Below are positions 35,897 to 52,536 of a stretch of DNA of 64,000 nt, in pieces. The notes under the pieces were generated by a model. It saw only the letters and a list, made by a program, of their open reading frames with translations. It ran no database searches and had not been told where the DNA came from. The DNA lies in the NCBI RefSeq assembly GCF_025244845.1, contig NZ_CP104264.1, forward strand, positions 372,001 through 436,000, given 5' to 3'. Both the position numbers and the translations under genes were made by a program. Position 1 is the stretch's first letter. Every line of letters starts with the position of its first letter. This stretch comes from Arthrobacter sp. zg-Y1171. Lineage in GTDB: Bacteria > Actinomycetota > Actinomycetes > Actinomycetales > Micrococcaceae.

Positions 35897-35923
35897 CTAT
35901 CGGCCGGTTCATCTTCAATGTTA
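35897..35923 (-). promoter_or_regulatory. Sigma-28 promoter of flgN-flgK-flgL-fliW
   Basis: On the minus strand the sequence reads TAAC, 15 bases, then GCCGATAG. It matches the FliA/sigma-D consensus (TAAA-N15-GCCGATAA) and is identical in both boxes and spacing to the fliC promoter. Confidence 0.85.
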
Positions 35924-36047
35924 GTGGTATGTTTCAGCTAAAGCGCTTAAGCGTGGATTCACCAGCGGTCTCAGCCACTGACCACGAAGCAGGCGTAACT
36001 GGTCGCAGTATGGGGACAGTTGGGAAACAAGGGCTTGGGGGTCCACA

Positions 36048-36920
36048 TTGAATCGCGCCGAACGTAATGCCATGGTGGTGGAAAATCTGCCATTGGTTGG
36101 TTATCTCGTATCCGAAGTCTGCGCCAAGGCCACGCACCTCTCGCGTGATGACCTGGCCTCAGCCGGATCCATCGCCCTTATAACGTCCGCAGATTCGTTC
36201 GATCCGGACCTGGGTGTTCCCTTTGGAGCCTATGCCCGCCGACGCATCGTCGGTGCTTTTGCGGATGAAATGCGTTCCAATGACTGGGCCACGCGATCCG
36301 CCCGCCGGCGGATCAAGGAAACCCTCGCGGTGAAGGAAACCCTCACCGGCGCCCTGGGCCGCACTCCCAATGTGGACGAGATTGCCTCCGCCTTGGGTGT
36401 GGACCGCACTGTGGCTGAGGATGCACTGTCGGATGCTTCCCGCACAGTGTCCAGCCTGGACGAATCCGCGACGGATTTCCTGATCGCGGACATGCCGTCG
36501 CCCGAGGGTTCCCTCCTGGCCTCCGAGCGCTTGAAGTACCTGCAGGCCGCCGTCGCCGCCCTGCCGGAAAAGATGCGGTATGTAGTGGAGGAGATTTACT
36601 TCCACGACCGCACGGTCAAGGAAATCGCCGAAGAGCTCGGCAGCACCCACTCGGCCGTGTCCCAGCAGCGGGCCGAAGCGGTCCGCCTCCTTCGGGACGG
36701 CCTGGGCACGCATTACTCCGACGCTGCTGCGGCACCGGAACTCCAGTCCCGGATTGCACCGGCGCGCCGCAACGCCTATCTCACCTCAGTGGGAGAACGC
36801 ACCGCCGGCGGCATCACCCGGCACCATCTGGCCCCGGCCCTTCCCGGCGCGCAGGCTTTTGTGCCCGGACTTACGGGTGTTCCGGGCCGCCCGGCAACTT
36901 TCAATCCGGCCGCTTCCTAG
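36048..36920 (+). CDS. fliA: Flagellar sigma factor, sigma-28/FliA-WhiG type
   Basis: A 290-residue sigma-70 family protein. Region 2 is ENLPLVGYLVSEV, then DDLASAGSIALITSADSFDPDLGVPFGAYARRRIVGAFADEMRS; region 3 is RRRIKETLAVKETL...GRTPNVDEIASALGV; region 4 is LPEKMRYVVEEIYFHDRTVKEIAEELGSTHSAVSQQRAEAVRLL. The start is TTG 36048 after GGGGGT; ATG 36072 is the alternative but would clip region 1/2. The C-terminal 55 residues are an extra tail. It should read the five TWAC-N15-GCCGAWAR promoters in this island. No flgM anti-sigma gene is seen in the window. Confidence 0.93.
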   Translation: MNRAERNAMVVENLPLVGYLVSEVCAKATHLSRDDLASAGSIALITSADSFDPDLGVPFGAYARRRIVGAFADEMRSNDWATRSARRRIKETLAVKETLTGALGRTPNVDEIASALGVDRTVAEDALSDASRTVSSLDESATDFLIADMPSPEGSLLASERLKYLQAAVAALPEKMRYVVEEIYFHDRTVKEIAEELGSTHSAVSQQRAEAVRLLRDGLGTHYSDAAAAPELQSRIAPARRNAYLTSVGERTAGGITRHHLAPALPGAQAFVPGLTGVPGRPATFNPAAS

Positions 36921-36968
36921 GCTTACCGCCGCACTTAAATCTTTTTTCGAATTCTTTTTCAGAACTGC

Positions 36969-36995
36969 TAACACCCGTCGGTGCTCCGCCGATAG
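36969..36995 (+). promoter_or_regulatory. Sigma-28 promoter of fliC
   Basis: TAAC (36969-36972), 15 bases, GCCGATAG (36988-36995). A strong match to the FliA consensus, placed about 60 bases before the flagellin start. The mRNA should begin near 37002. Confidence 0.9.
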
Positions 36996-37004
36996 CTATG
37001 GTTG

Positions 37005-37048
37005 CAGGCCCACGGAAGGGCCTGTTAGTACAGCCCACTCACGGAGGA
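37005..37048 (+). promoter_or_regulatory. CsrA-binding leader of fliC (two sites)
   Basis: Site 1 is a hairpin, CAGGCCC/GGGCCTG with loop ACGGAA (37005-37024). Site 2 is ACGGAGGA (37041-37048), which overlaps the Shine-Dalgarno sequence eight bases before ATG 37056. CsrA dimers bind ANGGA in hairpin loops and bridge two sites, blocking ribosomes; the layout matches the Bacillus subtilis hag leader. Confidence 0.75.
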
Positions 37049-37055
37049 ATACATC

Positions 37056-37892
37056 ATGGGTTTCACAATCAACACCAACGTTTCGTCGCTCAACGCCATG
37101 CGCAACCTGAACCTGAACCAGACGAACCAGGCCAAGTCGGTGGAGCGCCTCTCCAGCGGTATGCGCATCAACCGTGCGGCTGACGACGCTGCAGGCCTGG
37201 CAATCTCCGAAGGCCTGAAGAACCAGGTTTCCGGTCTGACGCAGGCCGGCCGCAACGCCCAGGACGGCATCAGCCTCATCCAGACCGCTGAAGGCGCCCT
37301 GACCGAGGTCCACAACATCCTCAACCGTATGCGTGACCTGACGGTTCAGGCCTCGAATGATACGAACAACGCTGAGTCGCGTACGGCGATCCAGACCGAA
37401 GTCACCGCGCTGACCTCGGAACTGGGCCGGATCAAGGACACCACAAACTTCAACGGCATCCAGCTGCTGGACAACACGGTAACCTCCGGTGCAACGGCCG
37501 GCACGCTGAAGATCCAGGTCGGCGCCGATGCCAACGAGACCATCGACGTCACGATGGCCAACGTGGCCGCCACGCTCACCACGATGGGCGACCTGACCGT
37601 CGATTCGCAGGTAAATGCTGCCGCATCGACCACCAAGTTGGATGCTGCCATCAAGTCGACTTCGGATCAGCGCGCCACCTTGGGTGCACAGCAGAACCGC
37701 CTCGAGTCCACCTCGCGCTCCATCGCGGTGTCCGTGGAGAACCTCTCCTCGGCCAACTCCCGCATCCGCGACACGGACATGGCTGCGGAAATGGGTAACT
37801 TCACGAAGTCCCAGATCCTCTCCCAGGCCGCTACCGCGATGCTGGCCCAGGCCAACCAGATGAACTCCGGCGTTATGTCGCTCCTGCAGTAG
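37056..37892 (+). CDS. fliC: Flagellin
   Basis: A 278-residue flagellin, the filament subunit. The conserved N-terminal D0/D1 part contains INTNVSSLNAMRNLNLNQ and SSGMRINRAADDAAGLAI; the C-terminal part contains SRIRDTDMAAEMGNFTKSQIL and ends NQMNSGVMSLLQ. The variable middle (about 145-195) is very short, so the filament core is nearly bare. The C-terminal helix is the site to which FliW and FliS normally bind. It is transcribed alone from a sigma-28 promoter and ends at a hairpin (37950-37998). It is the only flagellin gene here. Confidence 0.96.
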   Translation: MGFTINTNVSSLNAMRNLNLNQTNQAKSVERLSSGMRINRAADDAAGLAISEGLKNQVSGLTQAGRNAQDGISLIQTAEGALTEVHNILNRMRDLTVQASNDTNNAESRTAIQTEVTALTSELGRIKDTTNFNGIQLLDNTVTSGATAGTLKIQVGADANETIDVTMANVAATLTTMGDLTVDSQVNAAASTTKLDAAIKSTSDQRATLGAQQNRLESTSRSIAVSVENLSSANSRIRDTDMAAEMGNFTKSQILSQAATAMLAQANQMNSGVMSLLQ

Positions 37893-37949
37893 TAGCAGCG
37901 CCTGACCAGATTCATCAGCAGTAACCGCAGAACCGGCAGGTGAATGGCC

Positions 37950-40296: not shown

Positions 40297-40323
40297 TTAC
40301 CTACTCGTTAATTCGGCCGATAA
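40297..40323 (+). promoter_or_regulatory. Sigma-28 promoter of the flgB-flgE operon
   Basis: TTAC (40297-40300), 15 bases, GCCGATAA (40316-40323). The -10 is a perfect consensus and the spacing is the same as at four other sites. The -35 has T instead of A at its second base, as in front of fliM. Confidence 0.75.
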
Positions 40324-40334
40324 CCATTAACGAG
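40304..40334. promoter_or_regulatory. Perfect inverted repeat enclosing the flgB -10 box
   Basis: CTCGTTAAT (40304-40312) and ATTAACGAG (40326-40334) are perfect 9-base arms. The 13 bases between them contain GCCGATAA. This looks like an operator that would block sigma-28 RNA polymerase. Confidence 0.55.
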
Positions 40335-40369
40335 CACGGATAGCTCACGAAAGAGGCCACGGATCGGCC
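40332..40369 (+). promoter_or_regulatory. Two ACGGA hairpins in the flgB leader, candidate CsrA sites
   Basis: GAGC-ACGGATA-GCTC (40332-40346) and GGCC-ACGGATC-GGCC (40355-40369) both present ACGGAT in a seven-base loop. The leader begins near 40330, so both are on the mRNA. Confidence 0.5.
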
Positions 40370-40402: not shown

Positions 40403-40744
40403 GTGTTCGATTCCGTCTCCTCCATTGCGCTGCAAAGCGCCCTGGACGGTCTTGCCCTCCGTCAGCGGACCATCGCAAACAATATTGCGAATGTGAATAC
40501 CCCCGGCTACCAGGCCCAGCGCGTCACTTTCGAGGACGCCCTCGCTAAGTCGGTAAAAGCCGGCAATGGAGCAGTCGCCGCCACCACCTCGCGTTCCCTT
40601 GAACCCACCCGCCTGGACGGCAGCAACGTCAACCTGGACACCGAAACACTGTCCAATATCGACACCGTGCTGCGCTACCAGTTCGCCACCCAAGCCGTTG
40701 GCGGAGAAGCCAATTCCCTCCGCACGGCATTGAGGACCAACTAA
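40403..40744 (+). CDS. flgB: Flagellar basal-body rod protein FlgB
   Basis: A 113-residue rod protein from GTG 40403. FDSVSSIALQSALDGLALRQRTIANNIANVNTPGYQ is the rod-family N-terminus (NNIANVNTPGY motif). It begins the long flgB-flgC-fliE-fliF-fliG-fliH-fliI-fliJ-C40-fliK-flgD-flgE operon, whose genes mostly touch or overlap. FlgB forms the proximal rod with FlgC and FliE. Its stop shares a base with the flgC start. Confidence 0.94.
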   Translation: MFDSVSSIALQSALDGLALRQRTIANNIANVNTPGYQAQRVTFEDALAKSVKAGNGAVAATTSRSLEPTRLDGSNVNLDTETLSNIDTVLRYQFATQAVGGEANSLRTALRTN

Positions 40745-41136
40745 TGACTTTCGATGCCATCGGCATTGCCGCAACCGGACTCACCACGCACCGTAAGTGG
40801 CTGGACGCAGTTTCCGACAACCTGGCCAACGCCAACAATGTCTCCAGCACCGACGGTGCTGCTTTCCAGGCCCGCTACGTTGTAGCCCAGGAAGGCCGGG
40901 AAGGCAGCGGAGTCCACGTCACAGGCGTGGAGTACGGCGACGCCGAAGGCCGGATGGTCTACCAGCCGGACCACGCCCTCGCCGACGCCGAAGGCTACGT
41001 CCGTTACCCGGACATTGACCTCTCGGAGCAAATGGGCAACCTGATCCTTGCCCAGCGCGGCTATGAAGCGAATGCCGCCGTGGTTGACCGTGCCAAGAGC
41101 ACATACGAAGCAGCACTGCAGATTGGACGCTCCTAA
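40744..41136 (+). CDS. flgC: Flagellar basal-body rod protein FlgC
   Basis: A 130-residue rod protein. FDAIGIAATGLTTHRKWLDAVSDNLANANNVSS is the N-terminal motif. The C-terminal VRYPDIDLSEQMGNLILAQRGYEANAAVVDRAKSTYEAAL is the matching helix and the 'Q-R-x-Y-E-A-N' signature. It is exported and forms part of the proximal rod. The ATG shares its A with the flgB stop (TAATG). Confidence 0.95.
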   Translation: MTFDAIGIAATGLTTHRKWLDAVSDNLANANNVSSTDGAAFQARYVVAQEGREGSGVHVTGVEYGDAEGRMVYQPDHALADAEGYVRYPDIDLSEQMGNLILAQRGYEANAAVVDRAKSTYEAALQIGRS

Positions 41137-41441
41137 TGCCCGTTCCCGCCATCGCCGCAGTCAGCAGCACCACGCCGACGGGATACGTGGAAGCCGTAAA
41201 GCCCGCCGTCTCCACTGACGGTTCCTCCTTTGCCACGCAGCTCACCGGAGCCGTGGACAACGTCACCGAACTGCAGTCCACGTCCAAGACACTCGCCGTG
41301 CAGGCCGTGACCGGCGACCTTGATGACATCCACGCAGCCACCATCGCGTCCACCCGGGCCTCCGTCACCCTGGAACTTGTCGCCGCAGTGCGGAACAAGG
41401 GTGTTGACGCGTTCAACGAGATCATGCGGATGCAGGCCTGA
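41136..41441 (+). CDS. fliE: Hook-basal body protein FliE
   Basis: A 101-residue protein. The C-terminal half DDIHAATIASTRASVTLELVAAVRNKGVDAFNEIMRMQA is the FliE signature, which contains the helix joining the MS ring to the rod. The N-terminal half is a polar linker. ATG 41136 shares a base with the flgC stop, and its stop shares a base with fliF. It is the first rod subunit exported. Confidence 0.93.
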   Translation: MPVPAIAAVSSTTPTGYVEAVKPAVSTDGSSFATQLTGAVDNVTELQSTSKTLAVQAVTGDLDDIHAATIASTRASVTLELVAAVRNKGVDAFNEIMRMQA

Positions 41442-43036
41442 TGCCCGGACCCATGAGCGCGATGACCGGCCGGCTGGGCAAGACGGTAGGCCAGTTCACC
41501 CTGGCGCAGAAGACCATCGCCATTATCGGTATTGCCGTGGTGGCCCTGGGCATTGCGCTGCTTGCCTCCTGGCTGACCAAGCCGGCGTACACCCCGCTGT
41601 TCTCCGGCCTCGAAGCCACGGATGCCAACAGCATCGTGGAACAGCTCAAGACCGACGGCGTTCCCTACGAGGTTGCCAACGGCGGCGGCACCATCATGGT
41701 GCCGGAGGAATTCGTGTACGACCAGCGGCTCAAGGCCGCAGGCGCCGGCCTGCCGTCCGAATCCAGCGGCGGCTACTCGCTGCTGGACGAAATGGGAGTC
41801 ACCTCCTCGGAATTCCAGCAGTCCGTAACCTACAAGCGGGCCCTGGAAGGCGAGATCGCCAAGACCGTAGGTGCCATCGACGGCGTGAAGAACGCCTCCG
41901 TGCAGCTGGCCATCCCCGAAGACACCGTGTTCGTTTCCAAAAAAGCCGATCCCACCGCATCCGTATTCGTGGAAACGCAGAACGGGACCACGCTCAGCTC
42001 GGACCAGGTCTCCGCCATCGTGCACCTGACCTCAGCCTCGGTTGACGGTATGCAGTCCACCGACGTCGCCGTTATCGATGCCACCGGCACCGTGCTGTCC
42101 GCCGTCGGCACCGGCACTGTCGGTTCGGCCGACAAGCAGGCCACCGATTACGAGGAGCGGGTTACCGCCTCCGTGCAGACCATGCTGGACCGCGTAGTGG
42201 GTCCCGGCAACGCCACCGTAGCCGTGGCAGCCGACATGAACTATGAGTCCGCCAACCGGGTGGAGGAATCCTTCACCGCGCCGCAGGACACCCCGGCCCT
42301 GAACGAAGCCACCAGCACCGAGGAATACACCGGCGGTGCCAACGGCAGCGCCGCGGGCATCCTGGGTCCGGACAACATCGCGGTGCCCAACGGAGGTAAC
42401 GACGACGGCGCCTTCCGCTCCGAAACGAGCACCAAGAACAACGCGGTGAACAAGGTGACCGAAACCCGGGACATCCCGGCCGGTTCCCTGAACCGCCAGA
42501 CAATCTCCGTGGCACTGAATACCAATGCGGCCGCCGGATTGAACGTGGCAGACCTGGAAGCCCTGGTCGCCACCGCCGCCGGCATCAACGCCGAGCGCGG
42601 TGACGAGATCACGGTCGAAATGGTCTCCTTCAACGCAGACGGCGCCACCAGCGCGCGGGATGCCCTGGCCGAGGCACAGGCAGAAGAAGAAGCCGAACGC
42701 CGGGCACAGATGCTCCAGATGGGAATCATCGTGGCCGGCATCGTCCTGGTGGTCATCCTGGCCCTGGTCGCCTACGCCATGCGCTCCCGCCGGCAGAACC
42801 GCGAAGCCATCGACATTGGAGAACTGCCGGAGCTGGATCCACTGGCACCGGCCGCAGGCCTCACCATGCTGAGCGAACCCGCCCCGCTCGTTTCCACGGA
42901 CACGGCCTCCATGCAGATTGTGGCTGCTGCCGTGGACCAGGACCGCAAGCGGGCCGAACTCGACGCCTTGGCAGCACAGGACCCGGTTCGCACCGCTGAC
43001 TACCTGCGCAACCTCATGGAGGACACCCGAGCATGA
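41441..43036 (+). CDS. fliF: MS-ring protein FliF
   Basis: A 531-residue membrane protein. Transmembrane helices lie at about 25-45 (TIAIIGIAVVALGIALLASW) and 428-448 (MGIIVAGIVLVVILALVAYA). Between them are ring-building motifs (TPLFSGLEATDANSIVEQL, GAGLPSESSGGYSLLDEMG, VTYKRALEGEIAKTV) and a long periplasmic-side domain. The C-terminal tail (ALAAQDPVRTADYLRNLMED) binds FliG. It forms the base on which the motor and export gate are built. Confidence 0.95.
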   Translation: MPGPMSAMTGRLGKTVGQFTLAQKTIAIIGIAVVALGIALLASWLTKPAYTPLFSGLEATDANSIVEQLKTDGVPYEVANGGGTIMVPEEFVYDQRLKAAGAGLPSESSGGYSLLDEMGVTSSEFQQSVTYKRALEGEIAKTVGAIDGVKNASVQLAIPEDTVFVSKKADPTASVFVETQNGTTLSSDQVSAIVHLTSASVDGMQSTDVAVIDATGTVLSAVGTGTVGSADKQATDYEERVTASVQTMLDRVVGPGNATVAVAADMNYESANRVEESFTAPQDTPALNEATSTEEYTGGANGSAAGILGPDNIAVPNGGNDDGAFRSETSTKNNAVNKVTETRDIPAGSLNRQTISVALNTNAAAGLNVADLEALVATAAGINAERGDEITVEMVSFNADGATSARDALAEAQAEEEAERRAQMLQMGIIVAGIVLVVILALVAYAMRSRRQNREAIDIGELPELDPLAPAAGLTMLSEPAPLVSTDTASMQIVAAAVDQDRKRAELDALAAQDPVRTADYLRNLMEDTRA

Positions 43037-44136
43037 CCGACCTTGCCACTGCCCCGGCCGGACTGCCCTTTGCCGCCGCCTCGAACGGGTCCGCCCTTGC
43101 CCTAAGCGGCGCCCGGACGGATGCGGGATCCGGCGAGCTGACCGGCACCCAGAAGGCTGCCATCATTTTGATGCAGCTGGAAACCTCCCGGGCCGCGGTG
43201 GTTATGCAGCAGTTCACCGAGGCCGAGGCGCAGGCCATCGCGGCGGAGATTGTCCGGCTTCGCCGGGTGGACTCTTCCGTGGCCGAGGAAGCCATCAACG
43301 AGTTCTACGAGATGACCATTGAGGGCCGCCGCCGCGCCCACGGCGGCCGCGACGTCGCCATGGGACTGCTTGAAGCGTCCTTCGGTGTCGAGCGTGCCTC
43401 CGGCGTGATGGAACGACTGGCCTCCTCGATGGCGGGCAAGTCCTTCGAATTCCTCGAAACCGCTGAGCCCAACCAGGTGATTTCCCTGCTGGACGGCGAG
43501 CTGCCGCAGACCATTGCGCTGGTCCTGGCGCATATGCGTCCCCAGCGCGCCTCAGCCGTGCTGACCGGCCTGAGCGCGGAGCTGCGCACCGACGTCGCGC
43601 AGGCCATTGCAACCATGGCCCGCGCTACCCCGGAAGCCGTGCGCGTGGTCGCCGAAACGCTGCGGGCACGTGCCTCGGCGCTGGGCGCCGCCCGCGAGGC
43701 CACCGATGCCATCGGCGGCGTGCAGCCGCTGGTGGAAATCATCAACCGCTCCGACGCAGTCACCGAACGCGCGCTGCTCGAGGCGCTCGAGGAACGCGAT
43801 CCGGAGCTGGCGGAAGAAGTCCGCTCCCGGATGCTTACCTTCGCCGACCTGGTCAAGCTCGAACGCCGGGACGTGCAGCTGGTGCTGCGCGGCATCGATG
43901 TGGGCACCCTGGCCCTGGCCATGAAGGGTGCTTCCGAGGCGGTGCTGGACGCCATCCGCACCAACGTCTCCGAGCGCAACCGCGAACTGCTCGACGACGA
44001 AATCAAGGTTTCCGGTCCCGCCCGCCTCTCGCAGGTGGAAGAAGCACGCGCCAACATTGTCCGGGCCATCCGCGAAATGGAAGCCCAGGGCATCATCGAG
44101 GTGCATCATGCGGACGAGGAAGAATATGTCTACTGA
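43033..44136 (+). CDS. fliG: Motor switch protein FliG
   Basis: A 367-residue protein. Its N-terminal domain binds FliF (LTGTQKAAIILMQLETSRAA), and its middle domain contains the FliM-binding region (LDGELPQTIALVLAHMRPQRAS). The C-terminal torque domain has FADLVKLERRDVQLVLRGIDVGTLALAMKGAS, with the charged residues that meet MotA. The first 38 residues are a non-conserved Ala-rich extension. It overlaps fliF by four bases and the fliH start by eleven. Confidence 0.95.
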   Translation: MTDLATAPAGLPFAAASNGSALALSGARTDAGSGELTGTQKAAIILMQLETSRAAVVMQQFTEAEAQAIAAEIVRLRRVDSSVAEEAINEFYEMTIEGRRRAHGGRDVAMGLLEASFGVERASGVMERLASSMAGKSFEFLETAEPNQVISLLDGELPQTIALVLAHMRPQRASAVLTGLSAELRTDVAQAIATMARATPEAVRVVAETLRARASALGAAREATDAIGGVQPLVEIINRSDAVTERALLEALEERDPELAEEVRSRMLTFADLVKLERRDVQLVLRGIDVGTLALAMKGASEAVLDAIRTNVSERNRELLDDEIKVSGPARLSQVEEARANIVRAIREMEAQGIIEVHHADEEEYVY

Positions 44137-44737
44137 CGAGCAGACGTTCTCCCGCCTGATCTACACCTCCCTCGGCGCCACGGACGAAGCACAGCTCAAC
44201 GCGCAGGTGGAAGCCCGCGGCCATGCCGCCGGTTACGCCGCCGGCCTGCGGGCCGCCGCAGCGGACACCGACCTGCTGCGCCGCACCCTGCGGGAGCAGT
44301 ACGACGACGAAATGCGCCGGGGACAGGAACGCATCAACCGGAGCCTTTCCGCCCTTAACTCCGCTGTCTTCAGCCTCGAAGGCCGCACCGTCGCCCTGAT
44401 CACCGACGTCCAGGACGCCCTGGCCGCCGCAGCAATCGACCTGGCCGAAGCACTGCTGGGCCGGGAACTCGCTTCCGGCGAGACGTCCGCCCGCGCAGCG
44501 CTGGCCCGTGCCCTGGAAGGCGTGGACACAGACCTGGTGCAGCGCGTCCGCATGCATCCGGTGGACCTCGCATCCCTGGATGAAGACACGCTCCGCCGCG
44601 CACGGGTGGAGTTCGTGGGCGACGCCGGCCTGCGGCGGGGAGACGCCGTCACCGAGTTCCCGGACGGCTACCTGGACGCCTCGCTGAGTTCCGCCGTCGA
44701 GCGTGTCCGCGCGGCACTGCTGGGGGAGGACTCATGA
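44126..44737 (+). CDS. fliH: Flagellar export protein FliH
   Basis: A 203-residue protein from ATG 44126, inside the fliG end. RGHAAGYAAGLRAAA resembles the GxxxG repeat segment of FliH/YscL, followed by a long coiled coil (RRTLREQYDDEMRRGQERIN) and a C-terminal domain (AIDLAEALLGRELASGE, then VRMHPVDLASLDEDTL) like the V-ATPase E subunit. It holds the FliI ATPase inactive and anchors it to the export gate. A longer frame upstream overlaps fliG and is rejected. Confidence 0.88.
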   Translation: MSTDEQTFSRLIYTSLGATDEAQLNAQVEARGHAAGYAAGLRAAAADTDLLRRTLREQYDDEMRRGQERINRSLSALNSAVFSLEGRTVALITDVQDALAAAAIDLAEALLGRELASGETSARAALARALEGVDTDLVQRVRMHPVDLASLDEDTLRRARVEFVGDAGLRRGDAVTEFPDGYLDASLSSAVERVRAALLGEDS

Positions 44738-46065
44738 CCGTCACCACGTGGCGCCCCCGCGCCGACCGTTTTACGGCAGCCCTGCGCTCCGCCGCCCCGC
44801 AGCGCATTGGCCGGGTGTCCTCCGTCCTGGGGCTGAGCATTGAAATTGCCGGCCTCGACTGCGGTGTAGGCGAGCTGGTGTCAATCGGGCACCCCGGGTC
44901 CGAGGTGGACGCCGAAGTGGTGGCAGCCACCCGTGACGGCATCCGCTGCATGCCCTTCGGCCGGCTCACCGGCCTGACCGCCGGAACTCCGGCACGCTCC
45001 AAGGGCACACCGCTGCTGGTCCCCACCGGCACCGGGCTGTTCGGCCGGGTGCTGGACGGCCTGGGCCGCCCCATCGACGGCAAGGGTCCGCTGCAGGTCG
45101 AGGCCTTTGTACCGCTGGACCACGAAACCCCGTCCGCCATGCTGCGCACCCGGATCAATACCCCGCTGCAGCTCGGCGTCCGGGCGATGGACACCCTCAC
45201 CACTGTGGGGCGCGGCCAGCGTATGGGCCTGTTCGCCGGCTCCGGCGTCGGCAAGTCCTCGCTGCTGTCCATGATTGCCCGCGGCACGGACGCGGAAGTG
45301 TCCGTGATTGCCCTGGTAGGGGAGCGCGGCCGTGAAGTCCGCGAGTTCCTCGAAGACGACCTGGGCGCCGAGGGCCTGGCACGGTCCATCGTGGTGGTCT
45401 CGACGTCGGACGAACCTGCGCTCATGCGCCTGCGCGCCGCGTTTGTGGCCACCCGGATTGCCGAATCCTTCCGCGATCAGGGTGCCGACGTCATGCTGAT
45501 GATGGATTCCCTGACCCGCGTGGCCATGGCCCAGCGTGAAATCGGGCTATCCGTAGGCGAACCGCCGGCCACCCGCGGCTATCCGCCTTCCACCTTCTCC
45601 CTGCTCGCGCAGCTGCTCGAACGCGCCGGTACGGGCGAACGGGGTTCCGTCACCGGCATGTACACCGTGCTCGTGGACGGCGACGACCACAACGAGCCCA
45701 TTGCCGACAGCGCCCGCTCCATCCTCGACGGACACGTGGTCCTGGACCGCAAGCTGGCCGTCTCCGGGCACTTCCCGTCAATTGACGCCCTGGCTTCCAT
45801 TTCCCGCGTTGCCTCCCGCGTAAACCCGCGGGAACGCAGCGATGCCGCGTCAACGCTGCGCCGGGTAATGGCTGCGCGGAAGGCTGCGCAGGATCTGCTC
45901 GACGTCGGCGCCTACCAACGCGGATCCAATCCCCTGGTGGACGCGGCAGTGGACAACCAGGACGCCATCAACGCCTTCCTGCAGCAGCGCATGGATGAAC
46001 AGACGCCGGCGGAGACCGCCTGGGCGCAGCTGCACAATCTCACCCGGATGCTGGGGGTGTCCTGA
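44734..46065 (+). CDS. fliI: Flagellum-specific ATPase FliI
   Basis: A 443-residue ATPase of the F1-beta-like family. Walker A is GSGVGKSS (169-176), preceded by GQRMGLFAG; Walker B is DVMLMMDSLTRVAMAQREI; the motif RGYPPSTFSLLAQLLERAG is the family signature. It powers unfolding and delivery of export substrates. It overlaps fliH by four bases and fliJ by one. Confidence 0.96.
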   Translation: MTVTTWRPRADRFTAALRSAAPQRIGRVSSVLGLSIEIAGLDCGVGELVSIGHPGSEVDAEVVAATRDGIRCMPFGRLTGLTAGTPARSKGTPLLVPTGTGLFGRVLDGLGRPIDGKGPLQVEAFVPLDHETPSAMLRTRINTPLQLGVRAMDTLTTVGRGQRMGLFAGSGVGKSSLLSMIARGTDAEVSVIALVGERGREVREFLEDDLGAEGLARSIVVVSTSDEPALMRLRAAFVATRIAESFRDQGADVMLMMDSLTRVAMAQREIGLSVGEPPATRGYPPSTFSLLAQLLERAGTGERGSVTGMYTVLVDGDDHNEPIADSARSILDGHVVLDRKLAVSGHFPSIDALASISRVASRVNPRERSDAASTLRRVMAARKAAQDLLDVGAYQRGSNPLVDAAVDNQDAINAFLQQRMDEQTPAETAWAQLHNLTRMLGVS

Positions 46066-46496
46066 TGTCCCGTGCCTTCCCCCTCGCCGGCCTGCTGCGC
46101 CTGCGCCAGCTGCAGCAGGACCGTGCCGCAGGCGAACTCGCGGCGGCCAACGTCCGCATGCGGGAAATCCGCGAAGCCCGTGCAGAGGCCTACAACTCCC
46201 TCGAAAGCTCCCACAGCGAGGCGGTGGATGCGGCAACCATGAACGCGATTGCGGCGGCCCGGGCCTCCTCGCGCAGCATGCTCGCCGATCTGAACGCGCT
46301 GGACACGCGCCATGCCGCGGAAGTGGAAACGGCACGCGCCGAATTTTCCTCCGCACGCGCCCGCTCCGTGGGCCTGGAAAAGCTTGAAGGCAAGTTCGCC
46401 GAGGCAGAAGCCGCCGAGGACCTGCGCACCGAACAAACCATCCTGGACGAACTCGCCGGCTCCGCCTGGCACCGCCGGCAGAAGGAAGCCAACTAA
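46065..46496 (+). CDS. fliJ: FliJ-like export chaperone/coiled-coil protein
   Basis: A 143-residue protein. It is almost entirely coiled coil (FPLAGLLRLRQLQQDRAAGEL, then LERKLE-like heptads through residue 130), the expected size and shape of FliJ, the central stalk of the FliI hexamer. Sequence identity with known FliJ is not visible by eye, so the call rests on position between fliI and fliK and on the fold. ATG 46065 shares its A with the fliI stop. Confidence 0.8.
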   Translation: MSRAFPLAGLLRLRQLQQDRAAGELAAANVRMREIREARAEAYNSLESSHSEAVDAATMNAIAAARASSRSMLADLNALDTRHAAEVETARAEFSSARARSVGLEKLEGKFAEAEAAEDLRTEQTILDELAGSAWHRRQKEAN

Positions 46497-47167
46497 TGAG
46501 CATGACGGACGCCCTGGGGCGGATCGACGAAATCCGAAGCACGCTGAGCCAGCTCTCCGGAACAGCAGCCGCAAAGGCGGCTGCCGTCACTACCACGGCC
46601 ACGGCGGCCGGGTCGGATGCGGAGTTCGCTTCCACTCTGTCCGCGCTGACTTCTGCGGCGTCGGCGGGAACGGACACCGGCACCTCCGGCGGCGCGGCAG
46701 CGGACGGCAAGGTGCTCGACGCCGTCCAGAAATACCTTGGCCTGCCCTACATCTGGGGCGGCAACGATCCAGCGCAGGGTCTGGATTGTTCTTCCTTCGT
46801 GCAGAACGTCTACAAGGATCTCGGCTTCACCCTTCCGCGAGTCACCTGGGACCAGATGAACTCGGGGACCGAGGTCGCTTCCATGGCCGATGCACAGCCC
46901 GGGGACCTGCTCTTCAGCCACGACGGCGGACACGTTGCCATCTACCTGGGCAACGGAAAGGCAGTGGACGCGCCGCAGCCCGGCCAGACCATTGCCATCC
47001 GCGATGCATGGGAAACCGACGCCAACCTGACCACTATCCGCCGCATCCTGCCGACGGAATCCGCCGGTGCCGCCGGTAGTGCCGGCGCTGCCGGTGCCGC
47101 GGGTCTCTCCGACCTGGTGGCTTCCGCCCGCGCTGCGCAGGCGGCCATGATGGGAACGGCAGCATGA
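46496..47167 (+). CDS. NlpC/P60 (C40) peptidase in the flagellar operon
   Basis: A 223-residue protein. The N-terminal 70 residues are Ala/Thr-rich, then comes a C40 domain: KVLDAVQKYLGLPYIWGGNDP, nucleophile Cys98 in LDCSSFVQNVY, base His146 in SHDGGHVAIYLGNG and Asp158 at the third position, 12 residues on, where many members have His and RipA has Glu. No signal peptide is visible, so export probably uses the flagellar gate. It likely cuts peptidoglycan cross-bridges so that the rod can pass the thick wall, taking the part of the FlgJ muramidase, which is absent here. Confidence 0.88.
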   Translation: MSMTDALGRIDEIRSTLSQLSGTAAAKAAAVTTTATAAGSDAEFASTLSALTSAASAGTDTGTSGGAAADGKVLDAVQKYLGLPYIWGGNDPAQGLDCSSFVQNVYKDLGFTLPRVTWDQMNSGTEVASMADAQPGDLLFSHDGGHVAIYLGNGKAVDAPQPGQTIAIRDAWETDANLTTIRRILPTESAGAAGSAGAAGAAGLSDLVASARAAQAAMMGTAA

Positions 47168-48717
47168 GCGTCTCCGCAGGCATGCCGCGCACGGCCGCCC
47201 CCGCTGCTTCCCTCCGGACCGCTGTCCCGGGGTCCGCCTCCGCCGGCGTTGGTGCGGACCAGTTCGGGTCCACGTTTGAGGATGCCCTTGCCGCCTCGAA
47301 CCGGGCGGCATCCGGCCGTGACGCCGGCCGTGACGCCGGCCGCGACGCTGGCCGCGACGCCGGAAAAGCTGCTGCCGCGCCGGAGCAAAAGGCTGGCCGA
47401 CAGGCTGCCGCGACAGCCCCTGCAGATTTTGCCGACGCGCCCGTCGCCGACGAGGGCGCCGCGGTTTCCCCGTTGCAGCCTGCGTCCGTAATGCCCGCGT
47501 CCGGATCATCGGTGCAGCCCCAGGTTTCCGCTCCGGCAACGGCTTTTGCCGGTTTTGCGGGTAACTCCCTGCCGGCAGCAGCCTCGACCAGTGCCGGGTC
47601 CAGCGATTCCGACGCTGTTGACGGCGTTCCTGCCGGAGGAGCCACATCGGGTGCGGCAGCCACGGCCGCCCCCTCCACCCCGGGCGGTTTCATGGCCGCG
47701 GCTACTGCCGGCGCCGCCGCCGTCGTCACCACCGGGGCAGCAGCAACGGCAGTTCCGCGGAACACGGCAGACGCCGGTACCCCGAAGGCGAATGCCGTCA
47801 CCGCCTTTGCTGCGGCCAACGTGGTGACCGGAGGAAGTCCCTTGCCGGGCACCGCAGCCACAGCCACAGCCGCCACCGCAGCCACAGCCGCCACCGCAGC
47901 CACGCCGGCGAACGCCGTCACCGCAGGTACCGTTCAAGCAGATGCCGCCGCACCGGTGGCAGGACTCCCGGCAACCGGCGGCGCCGCACCGGCGTCGAAC
48001 GCGCCGGCCGGGGCAGCAAACAGTGCAGTGGTTCCCGGCTCCGTGCCGGTCTCCGGTGCAGGCGCCGGAAACGAGGCGCCCCTGGCCTTCGCCGCCATAA
48101 TGCCCGCCGCCGCAATGCCCGCCGCCGGAACCGCCGGAACTGCCGATACTGCAGCTTCCGCCGCACCGGTTCCCGCGGGCGCAGCAGAAGCCCCGGCTGT
48201 CGGGCCGGCTATCACGCCGTCCCCGCTGCAGCCCCAGATGGCTGTCTCCGGAGCGGCCGCCATGCCGGCGGCACCGGCGGCCGCGCCCGTTGCCACCCCG
48301 CTGCTGCCACAGGTGTCCCAGCCGCTGTTTTCCCTCGCAACGGCCGCGCAGGGGGAGCACGTGATGACGCTGAGTATCACCCCGGACAACCTCGGGCCGG
48401 TCACCGTCAGGGCCCATGTGGGTGCAGAAGGCGTTCGGATCGAGCTCTTCGCTCCGTCCGAGGCCGGCCGCGAAGCGCTGCGCACCCTCATGACGGACCT
48501 GCGCCGGGACCTTGCCGGCTCGGGCATGAACGCCAACCTTTCCCTCTCCGCCCAGGACGCCCCGGGCGAGGGCGCTGAACGCCGCGGGCACGGAACGGAA
48601 CCGGGTTCTGCAACGCAGGCCCCGCCCGATCCCGAGCGGATGCCGGCGGACCCGGCCCCACGCACTTACCGGCCGGGATTCCCCGCGTCGGCATCAACCA
48701 TCGACTTCCTGGCCTAG
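47164..48717 (+). CDS. fliK: Hook-length control protein FliK
   Basis: A 517-residue protein. Residues 1-375 are an Ala/Pro/Gly/Thr-rich, low-complexity ruler with tandem repeats. The C-terminal domain at about 390-480 contains HVMTLSITPDNLGPVTVRAHV and LRTLMTDLRRDLAGSGMN, the Flg_hook (PF02120) signature. FliK measures the hook and switches the export gate from hook to filament substrates. The repeat DNA could allow length changes. It starts in the ATGA overlap with the C40 gene and ends before flgD. Confidence 0.9.
   Translation: MSVSAGMPRTAAPAASLRTAVPGSASAGVGADQFGSTFEDALAASNRAASGRDAGRDAGRDAGRDAGKAAAAPEQKAGRQAAATAPADFADAPVADEGAAVSPLQPASVMPASGSSVQPQVSAPATAFAGFAGNSLPAAASTSAGSSDSDAVDGVPAGGATSGAAATAAPSTPGGFMAAATAGAAAVVTTGAAATAVPRNTADAGTPKANAVTAFAAANVVTGGSPLPGTAATATAATAATAATAATPANAVTAGTVQADAAAPVAGLPATGGAAPASNAPAGAANSAVVPGSVPVSGAGAGNEAPLAFAAIMPAAAMPAAGTAGTADTAASAAPVPAGAAEAPAVGPAITPSPLQPQMAVSGAAAMPAAPAAAPVATPLLPQVSQPLFSLATAAQGEHVMTLSITPDNLGPVTVRAHVGAEGVRIELFAPSEAGREALRTLMTDLRRDLAGSGMNANLSLSAQDAPGEGAERRGHGTEPGSATQAPPDPERMPADPAPRTYRPGFPASASTIDFLA
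47317..47364 (+). repeat. 12-base tandem repeat in fliK
   Basis: Four units of CGYGACGCYGGC encode RDAGRDAGRDAGRDAG near residue 55 of the FliK ruler. A second (Ala-Thr)-coding repeat lies near 47857-47912. Confidence 0.85.
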
Positions 48718-48730
48718 AAGAGGAGACCAC

Positions 48731-49192
48731 GTGCCCGTAGAAGGAGTAGCGGCTGCAGGCGGCATTACCGCCGGCGGAACCGCAGTTCGAGAGCCCAAGC
48801 AAACCATGGACAGCGAGGTCTTTATGCACCTGCTGGTCACCCAGCTGCGCAACCAGGACCCCAGCTCGCCCATGGACACCAACCAGATGATCTCGCAGAC
48901 CACCGAGCTGGCATCCATGGAACAGCTCACCGCCATGGCGAAGATGGACGAAGAGAATTTCTCCCTGCAGATGCGTATCGCCGCCGCTGCGCTCATCGGC
49001 CAGACCGTCACCTATACCAACGACGACGGCGTCGCCGTCACCGGAACCGCCAAATCGGTCTCCTACGCCGCCGGCGTCCCGACCGTCAACATCAACGGCG
49101 AGGACGTCCTGCTGGACCGAATCTCCGGCGTCGTCGACGGGGCAGCAGATCAAACCCCCGACGCACCCAAAGCACCCGCAGCAACCGCATAA
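48731..49192 (+). CDS. flgD: Hook-capping protein FlgD
   Basis: A 153-residue protein from GTG 48731, after GAGGAG. The core is the FlgD N-terminal signature: SEVFMHLLVTQLRNQDPSSPMDTNQMISQTTELASMEQL, followed by a short Tudor-like strand region (GQTVTYTNDDGVAVTG). Enteric FlgD is longer and has two domains, so the C-terminal domain here is reduced. It caps and scaffolds the hook. Confidence 0.92.
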   Translation: MPVEGVAAAGGITAGGTAVREPKQTMDSEVFMHLLVTQLRNQDPSSPMDTNQMISQTTELASMEQLTAMAKMDEENFSLQMRIAAAALIGQTVTYTNDDGVAVTGTAKSVSYAAGVPTVNINGEDVLLDRISGVVDGAADQTPDAPKAPAATA

Positions 49193-49232
49193 CCCTCCCT
49201 CCCGGCACCACCAAAGCTGAAAGGCGCCACCA

Positions 49233-50399
49233 ATGCTTCGCTCCCTTTACTCCGGTATCTCCGGACTCCGCTCGCACCAGACCATGCTCGACGTCACCGG
49301 CAACAACATCGCCAACGTCAACACCACGGGCTACAAGGCCACCGCCGTCCAGTTCCAGGACACCCTGTCCCAGCTGACGCAGGGCGCCACCGCGCCCGGC
49401 GCCAACAACGGCGGCGGCAACCCGGCGCAGGTGGGCCTCGGCGTCCTGGTCTCCGGCATCACCACCAACTTCACGCAGGGTTCGGCGCAGGCCACGGGCC
49501 GGGCCGAGGACCTGATGATCAACGGCGAGGGTTACTTCATCACCCGCCAGGGCAACACCTCCACCTATACCCGCGCGGGCGCGTTCAACCTGGACGGAGC
49601 CGGCCGCCTGGTCTCCACGGACGGCGGCATTGTCCAGGGCTGGACTGCCAATGCCGACGGCACCCTGAACACCGGCGGCGCAGTGGGCAACATTGTCCTG
49701 CCCGACGGCGCCATCGTCCCGGCCGCGGCCACCAGCGAAGCCACCATGACCGGCAACCTGCCCTCGGAGACCCCGGTCGGCGGCACGGTTGTACGCGACA
49801 TGGACGTCTACGATGCCAACGGCAACCCCTCAACGGTTCCCCTGACGTTCACGCGTACCGCGGGCGGCTGGAGCGTTAGCGGGAAGGACGCGACAGCCGT
49901 GGACCTGACCTTTGCCGACGGCGCCCAGGCCGATGCCAACGCCGACACCATCACCGTTGGCGGCGTGGCCGTGAACCTCACCGGGCTCTCCAGCTACGCC
50001 GGTGTCAGCACGGCCTCGGTCACCAGCAACGGCCGCAGTGCGGGCACGCTGGAGTCCTTCTCCATCGGCAAGGACGGCACGGTGATCGGTTCCTTCACCA
50101 ACGGTGCAAAGCAGGCCCTTGCCCGCATCGCCGTGGCCACCTTCACCAATTCGGCCGGCCTGGAGAAGACCGGCAACTCGAGCTTCACCGCTACGGTGAA
50201 CTCCGGCAACCCCGTCATCGCCGGTCCCGGCGAGGCCGGTGCAGGCGGCATCGGCAGCGGCATGCTGGAAATGTCCAATGTGGACCTGTCCCAGGAGTTC
50301 ACCAACCTGATCGTCGCCCAGCGCGGCTTCCAGGCCAACGCCCGAATCATCACCACCTCGGATGAAGTGCTGCAGGAACTTACCAACTTGAAGCGCTAG
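49233..50399 (+). CDS. flgE: Flagellar hook protein FlgE
   Basis: A 388-residue protein. Its N-terminus, LRSLYSGISGLRSHQTMLDVTGNNIANVNTTGYKA, and its C-terminus, EMSNVDLSQEFTNLIVAQRGFQANARIITTSDEVLQELTNLKR, are the paired hook/rod helices. The middle has the FlgE-type insert with GEGYFITRQGNTSTYTRAGAFN. Length and insert fit FlgE rather than FlgG. Only one such long rod/hook protein is present, so no separate FlgF or FlgG is encoded in the window. Confidence 0.92.
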   Translation: MLRSLYSGISGLRSHQTMLDVTGNNIANVNTTGYKATAVQFQDTLSQLTQGATAPGANNGGGNPAQVGLGVLVSGITTNFTQGSAQATGRAEDLMINGEGYFITRQGNTSTYTRAGAFNLDGAGRLVSTDGGIVQGWTANADGTLNTGGAVGNIVLPDGAIVPAAATSEATMTGNLPSETPVGGTVVRDMDVYDANGNPSTVPLTFTRTAGGWSVSGKDATAVDLTFADGAQADANADTITVGGVAVNLTGLSSYAGVSTASVTSNGRSAGTLESFSIGKDGTVIGSFTNGAKQALARIAVATFTNSAGLEKTGNSSFTATVNSGNPVIAGPGEAGAGGIGSGMLEMSNVDLSQEFTNLIVAQRGFQANARIITTSDEVLQELTNLKR

Positions 50400-50497: not shown

Positions 50498-50524
50498 TAA
50501 CGACGGGGCCGTAACGGCCGAAAG
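50498..50524 (+). promoter_or_regulatory. Sigma-28 promoter of flbD-motA-motB
   Basis: TAAC (50498-50501), 15 bases, GCCGAAAG (50517-50524). One base differs from GCCGATAG. Its position between a terminator and flbD fits a separate class III unit for the stator. Confidence 0.75.
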
Positions 50525-50545
50525 TAGGGGTGAGGGCCTATCGGA

Positions 50546-50567
50546 GTCCTGCGGAACCAGCCAGGAC
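50546..50567 (+). promoter_or_regulatory. Hairpin over the flbD ribosome site
   Basis: GTCCTG and CAGGAC form a six-base perfect stem; the loop contains CGGA and the second arm is part of the Shine-Dalgarno region (AGGACGGGG). It may be a weak CsrA target or simply a thermodynamic brake on flbD translation. Confidence 0.35.
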
Positions 50568-50573
50568 GGGGCA

Positions 50574-50879
50574 ATGATTGTTCTAACGCGTCTCAACGAT
50601 GCTCAGTTTGCGATCAACCCTGACCTGATCGAGCGGATCCACTCCAACCCGGACACCACCCTCGTGATGGTCGACGGCGCGAAATACATCGTGACGGAGA
50701 GCCTGCAGGAAGTTATCGACCGCATTGCGGCCTACCGGGCGCAGGTGATTTCCATGGCACGCGATATCCCTCCCCGCGTTCCCGGGCGTCCCCTTGGGCT
50801 CGTGCCCGACGCTTTTCCGGCAGCCCCGGAGAAAGCTCCCCCCAGCAATGCAGTGCCCCTTCGCCCTAGGAACGACTAA
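50574..50879 (+). CDS. flbD: Flagellar FlbD family protein
   Basis: A 101-residue protein from ATG 50574. MIVLTRLNDAQFAINPDLIERIHSNPDTTLVMVDGAKYIVTESLQEVIDRI is the FlbD (PF06289) signature, the small protein found between flgE and motA in Gram-positive bacteria and spirochaetes. The C-terminal 40 residues are a Pro-rich tail. Its role is unknown; in spirochaetes and Bacillus it is part of the flagellar operon. Confidence 0.92.
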   Translation: MIVLTRLNDAQFAINPDLIERIHSNPDTTLVMVDGAKYIVTESLQEVIDRIAAYRAQVISMARDIPPRVPGRPLGLVPDAFPAAPEKAPPSNAVPLRPRND

Positions 50880-51691
50880 TGGATCCAGCAACAATTATCG
50901 GCTTAGTCCTCGCCTTCGGGTCGCTTTATGCCATGATCACCCTCGAAGGTGCCCATGTGTCCGCGCTCCTGCTGCCGGCGCCGATGATCCTCGTATTCGG
51001 CGCCACCATTGCCGTGGGCCTTGCGGGAGGAACCTTCAAGGACTTCATCCTGTCCTTCAAGTCCCTGCCCCGGGCCTTCATGGGCAAGACCCCCCGGCCG
51101 CAGGAGACCATTGACCGAGTGGTCCTGCTGGCGGAAAAGGCCCGCAGCGAAGGCCTCCTGTCCCTTGAGCAGGACGCCGCGGAGGTCGAAGATCCCTTCC
51201 TGCGCACGGCCCTGCAGAACATCGCCGACGGCACCGACGGCGAGGAGCTGCGCATGCTGCTCGAAGACGAAATCGCCACCAAGACCGCCACCGACAAGAT
51301 TGCGGTGAAGTTCTTCAACAGCTTGGGCGGTTATGGTCCCACCATCGGCATCATCGGCACCGTTGTTTCGCTGACCCACGTCCTGGAGAACCTCTCCACG
51401 CCGGACCACCTGGGGCCCATGATCGCCACTGCCTTTGTGGCCACACTCTGGGGGCTGCTTTCGGCCAACTTCATCTGGCTGCCCATCAGCACCCGGTTGA
51501 AACGGCTGGCGGAGCTCGAAGCGGATGAAATGAACCTCCTGATGGAAGGTGTCCTGGCCCTGCAGGCCGGCAGCCAGCCGCGCCTGCTCGGGGAACGGCT
51601 GCGCGCGATGGTCCCGGCCCACGTGTTGGGCGGCAAAGCGGACAAGGCAGACAAGTCCGATGCCGCGGACAAGGTCCAGGACGCAGCGTGA
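50879..51691 (+). CDS. motA: Flagellar motor stator protein MotA
   Basis: A 270-residue membrane protein. Helices lie at about 4-20, 25-44, 146-170 and 178-200. LGGYGPTIGIIGTVVSLTHVLENL and HLGPMIATAFVATLWGLLSANFIWLPI are the MotA/TolQ/ExbB signature. The cytoplasmic loop (VLLAEKARSEGLLSLEQ) carries the charged residues that meet FliG. MotA and MotB form the proton channel. It shares one base with flbD and overlaps motB by four. Confidence 0.94.
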   Translation: MDPATIIGLVLAFGSLYAMITLEGAHVSALLLPAPMILVFGATIAVGLAGGTFKDFILSFKSLPRAFMGKTPRPQETIDRVVLLAEKARSEGLLSLEQDAAEVEDPFLRTALQNIADGTDGEELRMLLEDEIATKTATDKIAVKFFNSLGGYGPTIGIIGTVVSLTHVLENLSTPDHLGPMIATAFVATLWGLLSANFIWLPISTRLKRLAELEADEMNLLMEGVLALQAGSQPRLLGERLRAMVPAHVLGGKADKADKSDAADKVQDAA

Positions 51692-52500
51692 GCGCCAAGG
51701 GCCGGCGTCCGAAACAGCACGAGGAGGACGATCACCCGGACGAACGCTGGATGGCCTCCTACATGGATATGGTCACCGTGCTGATGTGCATGTTCATTGT
51801 CCTGTTCGCCATGTCCACTGTGGACGCGAAGAAGTTCGAACAGCTCAAGGAGTCCCTGGCCACCGGTTTCGGCGCCGAGGAGAGCAACACGGTGGACACA
51901 GCCGTCGGCATCATCGTGCCGCCGGACAAGGTGGACAGCGAAGAGACCGTTGAACCCGACGCCGCCCTGGCCGCCAAGGAAGTCGACGATCTCACAGCGC
52001 TCCAGGACGCAATTTACGCGGGCCTGCAGGAAAAGGGCATGGAAGACGCCGTGCGCTTCGAAATGGATGAGCGGGGCCTGACCATCCGGCTGGTCAGCTC
52101 GGAAATGTTCTTCGCCCCGGACCTGGCCGACCTCACCGACGAGGCCGTCCAGGTGCTGGACACCGTAGGTCCCGCACTCGCGCCGACCACCTACCAGGTG
52201 TCGGTGGAAGGCCACACAGCCCAGGTCCGCCAGTACGCCGACGACGCGTTGGACTGGGAACTGTCCTCGTCCCGTTCGGTGAACGTGCTGCGCTACCTCG
52301 TCTCCGGCGGGGGAGTGAAGCAGGACCATATGAAGGCAGTGGGTTACGGCGAGTCCCGCCCGCTGACCCCCGGCAGGGACGCCGCTGAACTCGCCCAGAA
52401 CCGGCGGGTGGACATCGTGGTCCTGTCCGGACAAAGCGAAGACGTCCGCTCCCTCATCCCCCAAATCGTGGCCGAGCGTGAAACCGCTGCAGGCACCTAG
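51688..52500 (+). CDS. motB: Flagellar motor stator protein MotB
   Basis: A 270-residue protein from GTG 51688. Its single transmembrane helix MDMVTVLMCMFIVLFAMS (about 26-43) contains the proton-carrying Asp27 (family Asp32). The C-terminal OmpA-like peptidoglycan-binding domain (about 150-260) has YQVSVEGHTA, SRSVNVLRYLVSGG and NRRVDIVVLS. It anchors the stator to the wall. It is the last gene of the flbD unit. Confidence 0.95.
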   Translation: MSAKGRRPKQHEEDDHPDERWMASYMDMVTVLMCMFIVLFAMSTVDAKKFEQLKESLATGFGAEESNTVDTAVGIIVPPDKVDSEETVEPDAALAAKEVDDLTALQDAIYAGLQEKGMEDAVRFEMDERGLTIRLVSSEMFFAPDLADLTDEAVQVLDTVGPALAPTTYQVSVEGHTAQVRQYADDALDWELSSSRSVNVLRYLVSGGGVKQDHMKAVGYGESRPLTPGRDAAELAQNRRVDIVVLSGQSEDVRSLIPQIVAERETAAGT

Positions 52501-52509
52501 CGGCTTTTC

Positions 52510-52536
52510 TTACGCAGCCGTTCCAAGTGCCGATAG
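52510..52536 (+). promoter_or_regulatory. Sigma-28 promoter of the fliM-flhA operon
   Basis: TTAC (52510-52513), 15 bases, GCCGATAG (52529-52536). This gives a start of transcription near 52543, almost at the fliM start codon, so fliM mRNA would be leaderless or have a leader of a few bases. Confidence 0.75.

Follow-up and report, generated by a model that had tools for sequence, protein, structure and literature searches.

Sigma-28 promoters and tandem GGA hairpins in the flagellar island of an Arthrobacter, and the possible ordering of flagellar gene expression by CsrA and FliW

The flagellar genes of the actinomycete Actinoplanes missouriensis are reportedly transcribed simultaneously (Jang et al. 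2016). Their joint transcription without any transcriptional checkpoint is likewise described in passages of PMC8306008, which call post-transcriptional control unknown and are silent on leader hairpins. The flagellar island considered here lies in a stretch of 64,000 nucleotides of the soil actinobacterium Arthrobacter sp. zg-Y1171 (hereafter the window; positions 372001-436000 of C1, the single contig of 3,421,827 bases that makes up the genome), and the present analysis concerns its five sigma-28 promoters and the leaders of the mRNAs that would start there, foremost that of the early flgB-flgE unit. An original prediction, made from the letters of the window, had called the flat hierarchy implied by these promoters unusual; flatness appears, by sequence, to hold here, but it is not new in an actinomycete, having already been reported for A. 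missouriensis.

In Bacillus subtilis, flagellin holds FliW and leaves CsrA free as long as the hook is unfinished (passages of PMC8306008 and PMC7652899). The island resembles this CsrA-FliW-Hag system, as far as it is described in passages of PMC7652899, in that its fliC leader has a GGA hairpin and a GGA-containing Shine-Dalgarno sequence and in that csrA and fliW belong to the cluster; it differs in that the early flgB unit also has paired GGA hairpins, located away from the Shine-Dalgarno sequence. The mRNA of Escherichia coli flhDC, likewise an early flagellar message, also has a pair of CsrA-type sites close to its 5' end (PMC7652899, in part), with the difference that the target in the window is a structural operon read by sigma-28 rather than a master regulator, and that protection there is only proposed. 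Finally, the island of Kineococcus radiotolerans, described in 2008, shares with the present one the location of csrA beside the flagellar genes, the apparent lack of flgM and a flagellin site similar to BS2 of hag, whereas passages of the same source are silent on a flgB leader (PMC2587704, in part). A literature search confined to titles and abstracts, in which subscription papers are thinly covered and absence is therefore unproven, returned no account of the flgB leader or of CsrA binding in actinobacteria; what appears to be new is the class-wide occurrence of a tandem GGA hairpin where the mRNA of the early flagellar unit is predicted to begin.

Sigma-28 promoters of the flagellar island

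Pfam and NCBIfam searches of the window proteins yielded a minus-strand unit, flgN-flgK-flgL-fliW, and, on the plus strand, fliA, then fliC-fliD-fliS, then the unit running from flgB to flgE, with flbD-motA-motB and fliM-fliN-fliO-fliP-fliQ-fliR-flhB-flhA as further units, the latter followed by an unnamed open reading frame (ORF) and csrA. Five sites, each an exact match to TWAC-N15-GCCGAWAR, were taken as their sigma-28 promoters:

35897-35923, minus strand: promoter of flgN-flgK-flgL-fliW (-35 at 35920-35923, -10 octamer at 35897-35904)
36969-36995, plus strand: promoter of fliC
40297-40323, plus strand: promoter of the flgB-flgE unit
50498-50524, plus strand: promoter of flbD-motA-motB
52510-52536, plus strand: promoter of fliM-flhA

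A scan verified the positions, strands and uniform spacing of exactly 15 bases that had been reported for these sites, and the protein searches returned the genes that had been named behind them. The layout is that of a textbook sigma-28 promoter, with a -10 GCCGATAA-like box 15-16 nt past a T/A-rich -35, the classical -35 TAAA being replaced by TWAC. The pattern has no other match in the window and none in 100 dinucleotide shuffles; the genome-wide count that had been proposed as a check gave six matches, five of which are the flagellar sites, against two for the reversed pattern. On the strength of the shuffles and this comparison a chance origin of the five sites was rejected. The sixth match (C1:2090173) is flanked by two minus-strand ORFs, and no plus-strand ORF of at least 90 aa starts within 800 nt downstream of it. 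A looser pattern, TWA-N16-GCCGAWA, has 11 genomic matches, among them the five sites of the window, and its reversed control has 13; not exceeding its control, it leaves the full TWAC-N15-GCCGAWAR as the only clean pattern. A wider sigma-28 regulon was thus rejected, the sixth site having no nearby ORF downstream and the extra matches of the looser pattern equalling the control. Within the island, no clear sigma-28 site of their own was seen for fliD and fliS, which are probably transcribed by read-through from fliC, and the listed start of the fliM ORF (GTG 52527) falls inside the promoter, whereas a second GTG (52545) lies exactly 8 nt past the -10 octamer and is the likely start.

Conservation of the sites was followed in relatives. 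A relative of the sigma factor of the window (E 1e-20 or better) occurs in 98 of 295 genomes of the family; 60 such loci were taken, and promoters were counted in the 40 that hold fliC (1.56 million strand-bases). With a spacer of 15 or 16 the pattern has 126 matches in these loci, its reversed form none, and 124 of the 126 lie within 200 nt upstream of the start of flgN (34 of 40 loci), fliC (26/40), flgB (30/39), flbD (15/31) or fliM (19/20). The flbD site is chiefly confined to the genus of the window, and the spacer is 16 in five of 39 family flgB sites.

Beyond the family, in other orders of the class, the flgB promoter stays in position, mostly with another -35. Once 48 loci centred on fliF had been added, nearly all of them lying outside the family, a promoter site was called at flgB in 69 of 88 loci (39 family, 30 non-family); the -35 reads TWAC in all 39 family sites and, in the others, CTCA in 20, TWAC in three and neither in seven. 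The Actinoplanes flagellar promoter is said to have been published as CTCA-N15-17-GCCGAA, with which the CTCA of the non-family loci agrees, so that A. missouriensis would resemble these loci in its promoter and the present organism in joint transcription, the difference lying in the TWAC of the window and its family. Region 4.2 of the sigma factor reads (E/D)SR(V/I)SQ(L/M) in eleven CTCA-labelled genomes and in L097 and L100, and (H/P)(S/A)AV(S/T)QQ in the TWAC genomes (the window, G649, G671, G431 and L072), the -35 labels having been given by eye after looking, three of the 20 sigma genes taken (L242, L244 and L258) having been left out because they were read in a wrong frame, and the five sequences of the TWAC side being few and related. 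The recognition helix is seen to pass from an ESRVSQ type to an HSAVSQQ type where the -35 passes from CTCA to TWAC (L072, L243, L245-L257, L259-L261). The change of the -35 together with the recognition helix offers a natural experiment in promoter specificity.

As to the sigma factor and its own expression, two features are relevant:

36048-36920, plus strand: fliA, sigma-28 of the FliA/WhiG type (Pfam Sigma70_r2 and r4 over cut-off)
35925-35935, plus strand: candidate extended -10 of fliA, overlapping the flgN -35 on the opposite strand

The best NCBIfam match of the product is TIGR02479 (FliA_WhiG), with 126.4 bits under a cut-off of 189.6, and the protein is assigned as FliA because of its context and the promoters; its best-scoring named relative, 91% identical, is from Arthrobacter zhaoxinii. 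A sigma-28 site upstream of fliA was not consistently present in the family loci searched. Instead, the element TGRTANSTTNC occurs there in 33 of 61 loci and in 18 of 20 in the genus set (shuffle mean 0.14; one match on the reverse strand) and probably represents a different promoter class, that of sigma-A. Since fliA lacks a sigma-28 site and has another conserved element, at least two tiers are to be expected, fliA first and then the rest. The control of early and late units by one FliA-type sigma, as originally predicted, is thus supported by sites conserved in place and sequence but does not extend to fliA itself; similarly, the predicted collapse of classes II and III finds support in the site shared by early (flgB-flgE, fliM-flhA) and late (fliC, flgN-flgK-flgL) units, although two tiers at least would remain.

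A hairpin at 36031-36044, GGGC(TTGGGG)GTCC, holds the G-rich likely Shine-Dalgarno sequence just before the TTG start of fliA; it is kept in the genus, has another sequence and similar form in other genera, contains no GGA and might possibly serve translational control. A FlgM model found no protein over its cut-off in 39 relatives and passed in three of 14 control genomes, which marks a further difference from the B. subtilis system; the absence of FlgM has also been reported, in passages of the respective sources, for later actinobacterial classes (PMC10746217) and for four flagellated actinobacteria (PMC2587704).

Two GGA hairpins in the leader of the flgB unit

In alignments of the region upstream of flgB the strongest conservation lies downstream of the promoter, where two hairpins precede the operon:

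40332-40346, plus strand: hairpin 1, GAGC(ACGGATA)GCTC, at the predicted mRNA 5' end (alignments, strict scan)
40355-40369, plus strand: hairpin 2, GGCC(ACGGATC)GGCC (alignments, strict scan, compensated stem changes)
40403-50399, plus strand: flgB-flgC-fliE-fliF-fliG-fliH-fliI-fliJ-NlpC/P60-fliK-flgD-flgE (Pfam, NCBIfam)

The aligned forms are GAGC(ANGGANN)GCTC and then, in the family, mostly GGCC(AYGGAYC)GGCC. A GGA in a hairpin loop is the signature of CsrA (passages of PMC7652899; abstract of PMC4894983), and a 5' leader with two GGA-loop hairpins is, as far as its sequence goes, a candidate CsrA target. Hairpin 2 ends 33 nt before the flgB start codon at 40403, the GGA sites, unlike that of hag, not overlapping the Shine-Dalgarno sequence. 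In 36 of 39 loci of the family, hairpin 1 begins 8 nt past the -10 octamer, and in 26 of 30 others the distance is 7 or 8 nt; because of this spacing, together with that of 8 nt at fliM, the flgB mRNA is predicted to start directly with hairpin 1.

A looser hairpin scan, positive in 77 of 91 loci but with 874 off-target pairs, gave way to a strict scan, which demands ANGGA loops in a pair of neighbouring hairpins, flgB matches below 60 bits being left out. The latter is positive at flgB in 71 of 88 loci (39/42 in the family, 32/46 in other loci of the class; in L051 it chose the wrong partner hairpin) and gives, away from flgB in the same loci, 32 matches in 3.47 million strand-bases, corresponding to 0.0031 expected per flgB scan window. 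Stem 2 varies by lineage with pairing kept (GGCC/GGCC, GCCG/CGGC, CGCC/GGCG, GCCC/GGGC, GCCA/TGGC) while ANGGA is retained in both loops. In alignment A1, which keeps 47 of the 71 strictly positive loci after manual thinning, the observed mean pairing of each hairpin was reached by none of 2000 shufflings of the 3' arms among rows; pairing in fixed columns amounts to 87.5% of cells, against 23-38% in slid and 84.6% in shuffled columns (0 of 500 reaching the observed value), and the covariation score lies above every shuffle. In L067 (genome G203) both stems are kept, both GGA loops are lost and CsrA is present in the genome, a natural loop mutant.

The element is specific. A covariance model (R1) was built from these 47 rows and applied to the window and to 64 loci. 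Genome-wide it has a single strong match, which lies at the flgB leader (52.6 bits), the next scoring 17.6. Among 296 genomes of the class it has 26 matches of at least 34 bits in 25 genomes, all FlhA-positive; since many model rows derive from these genomes, presence is circular here, whereas the absence of strong matches from genomes negative for FlhA is free of this circularity. Matches of lower score, reaching 32.2 bits at most, are seen in genomes with no FlhA match too and look like background. None of 4227 Rfam families matched the flgB leader, even at an E value of 10, and a known Rfam element was accordingly rejected as its identity.

Run on species genomes, the exact leader pattern gave at least 123 matches in at least 120 stretches, of which 80 were considered by title, 79 being actinobacterial and one named only "bacterium". 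Among the 123 matches listed, 110 have flgB or flgC within 900 nt downstream, eight lie before fliH (seven have a fliH match, and L149 is assigned from its location between fliG and fliI), two before nlpC, and two are cut off behind fliD and fliS; the remaining one, in the "bacterium" record, has no flagellar protein match alongside, leaving 122 of 123 flagellar. Upstream, in the 122 listed matches with enough sequence, TWAC or CTCA stands at the expected distance in 114 (0.8 and 4.9% at random) and a CGA-type -10 in 107 (38% at random). A second promoter with a tandem GGA hairpin is seen inside the early cluster before fliH in L123, L149, L152, L162, L164, L168, L208 and L219, and before nlpC in L180 and L213; therefore, promoter and tandem hairpin occur as a set in front of the unit that a split of the flgB operon creates.

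CsrA, FliW and the leaders of the other units

The regulator that would recognize such hairpins and its antagonist are encoded at the ends of two units of the island, and the leader of fliC has features recalling those of hag:

60829-61095, plus strand: csrA, RNA-binding regulator (PF02599, 84.6 bits), at the end of the flhA unit
32582-32974, minus strand: fliW, CsrA antagonist (PF02623, 69 bits), at the end of the flgN unit
37004-37025, plus strand: GGA-loop hairpin in the fliC leader, similar to BS1 of hag (fold)
37041-37048, plus strand: Shine-Dalgarno sequence ACGGAGGA of fliC, similar to BS2 of hag (conservation of AYGGAGGA)

The CsrA translation contains L4 and R44, RNA-binding residues of CsrA. 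In a search covering 80 of 89 intended genomes CsrA was over cut-off in 69, these 69 being all but two of the 71 genomes that match FliA or FlhA; it was found in none of the nine genomes with no FliA match. The two FliA/FlhA-positive genomes lacking CsrA are G102 and G133; in the locus of the former (L065), the one inspected, both the flgB element and the AYGGAGGA Shine-Dalgarno sequence of fliC are absent.

With starts set by tblastn, 39 of 41 fliC leaders contain a GGA hairpin with a stem of 4 bp or more (the exceptions being L027 and L064), 40 show AYGGAGGA at the Shine-Dalgarno sequence (L065 having another one) and 38 combine the two; these figures supersede a count of 34 of 45 with profile-derived starts, at least eight of which were misplaced. 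Here, as in hag, a GGA site overlaps the Shine-Dalgarno sequence. GGA hairpins in the flbD leader of the window itself were considered and rejected, their ANGGA loops not being conserved in the genus alignment. In other families, eleven of the strict matches away from flgB lie before flbD-motA (L084, L088, L092, L095, L096, L099, L100, L101, L102, L103, L111), and the second hairpin of these tandem leaders usually holds the likely Shine-Dalgarno sequence. Judged by eye, 21 of 23 aligned fliM rows have GTG 8 nt past the -10 octamer, the starts of L028 and L034 being misplaced; a loose automatic count over 59 loci gave 8 nt only in 20, 7 nt in 13, 6 nt in eight, none in four and several or other spacings in 14. 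The fliM mRNA is thus predicted to be leaderless, starting at GTG 52545.

Elsewhere in the island, csrA is flanked by ORFs at 59697-60752 (351 aa) and 61125-61922 (265 aa), neither with a Pfam match, and a tRNA gene (61861-61933, minus strand, 72.6 bits) lies at the edge. No protein of the genome matches the chemoreceptor domain PF00015, for which 7 of 14 control genomes are positive. The flagellar set nonetheless appears complete, and the organism may swim without methyl-accepting chemotaxis. In eight loci (L035, L037, L038, L039, L041, L047, L048, L066) the only genes of the query set near fliA are flhA, csrA, flgN and fliA, in that order, and the cluster is therefore arranged differently there.

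Proposed ordering of flagellar gene expression on the mRNA

The explanation to which we give good, though not high, probability is that flagellar transcription by sigma-28 is flat and that CsrA and FliW order expression on the mRNA; the leader hairpins, on which the original prediction was silent, suggest that order is restored after transcription. FliA (36048) and RNA polymerase would read all five sites, and once FliA is made the genes for rod, switch, export gate, hook, filament and motor would be transcribed together, fliA itself being read from another promoter, probably of sigma-A, and no FlgM gate having been found. As long as the hook is unfinished, cytoplasmic flagellin would hold FliW and leave CsrA free, as in B. 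subtilis; free CsrA would then bind both GGA hairpins with which the flgB-flgE mRNA is predicted to begin and, in a hag-like manner, the GGA hairpin and Shine-Dalgarno sequence of fliC, blocking translation of the latter. At flgB its binding would protect the mRNA 5' end, in the manner of flhDC; protection is somewhat more likely than repression, because the hairpins occupy the predicted 5' terminus and stop well short of the start codon, the direction of the CsrA effect being the weakest step of this explanation. One regulator would thus, in one cell state, keep early genes on and late genes off, and the late type would also suit the leaders of flbD-motA in other families, where a hairpin is combined with a Shine-Dalgarno sequence containing GGA.

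A more ambitious proposal can be put forward only tentatively: CsrA-FliW might read two kinds of leader, twin 5' hairpins that keep the early mRNA (flgB, and also fliH and nlpC where the operon is split) and a hairpin with a GGA Shine-Dalgarno sequence that holds the late mRNA (fliC, and flbD-motA in several other families) until the hook is done, with the leaderless fliM escaping both; the order otherwise set by sigma-28 and FlgM would in this way be rebuilt on RNA across the actinomycete class.

It could be that nothing exists beyond the flat hierarchy, order deriving from export and chaperones and the leader hairpins being 5'-end stabilizers that need no CsrA. Flagellar transcription in Actinoplanes is indeed described as free of a checkpoint (PMC8306008, in part) and hairpin 1 lies at the predicted 5' end; a stabilizer, however, needs no fixed loop, whereas ANGGA is kept in both loops as stem 2 changes, and the association of csrA with FliA or FlhA in 69 of 71 genomes would be left aside, so that this alternative appears unlikely. 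Hardly more credit, indeed slightly less, is given to the view that the early units have additional sigma-A or activator-dependent promoters, sigma-28 acting only as a booster and the usual hierarchy being kept. Early flagellar units of B. subtilis are under promoters of these kinds and fliM could also be reached by read-through from motB, but the conserved blocks upstream of flgB in the genus alignment are mainly the sigma-28 boxes and the leader. That the inverted repeats are instead DNA operators for an unknown transcription factor acting just past the promoter is very improbable; they do begin at about the predicted transcription start, but the ANGGA loop is asymmetric and keeps to the flagellar sense strand (31 of 32 strict matches away from flgB), and hairpin 2 changes its stem letters with pairing kept, whereas an operator should keep them.

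Several observations weigh against ordering by CsrA and FliW or against the evidence brought for it. The strict scan fails in 17 of 88 flgB loci, where inspection by eye found variant paired GGA hairpins in eleven (L079, L081, L082, L088, L090, L097, L100, L104, L107, L108, L110), a single GGA hairpin in L091 and none in L064, L065, L067, L089 and L109. The aligned rows were selected because they pair, which favours structure; pairs changed on both sides are reached by 369 of 500 shuffles and the number of pair types, not clearly above expectation, by 65 of 500. By itself, the leader sequence of the window does not fold exceptionally well (z of -1.04 for the two hairpins alone and -0.04 for the whole leader), and the minimum-energy fold of the full 71-nt leader swaps hairpin 2 for another pairing. 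The -35 classes were set after looking at the sequences, and TGRTANSTTNC was composed after viewing the alignments. Finally, the co-occurrence of CsrA is a count of presence only; L064 (G030) is without the flgB element despite having CsrA, and L067, also with CsrA, retains both stems but lacks GGA.

The tandem hairpin nevertheless represents a concrete, class-wide candidate, and one protein and one short RNA would suffice for testing it. If the explanation by CsrA and FliW is true, CsrA control would extend from flagellin to the first flagellar structural operon, and the order of flagellar assembly would be imposed on RNA rather than on DNA.

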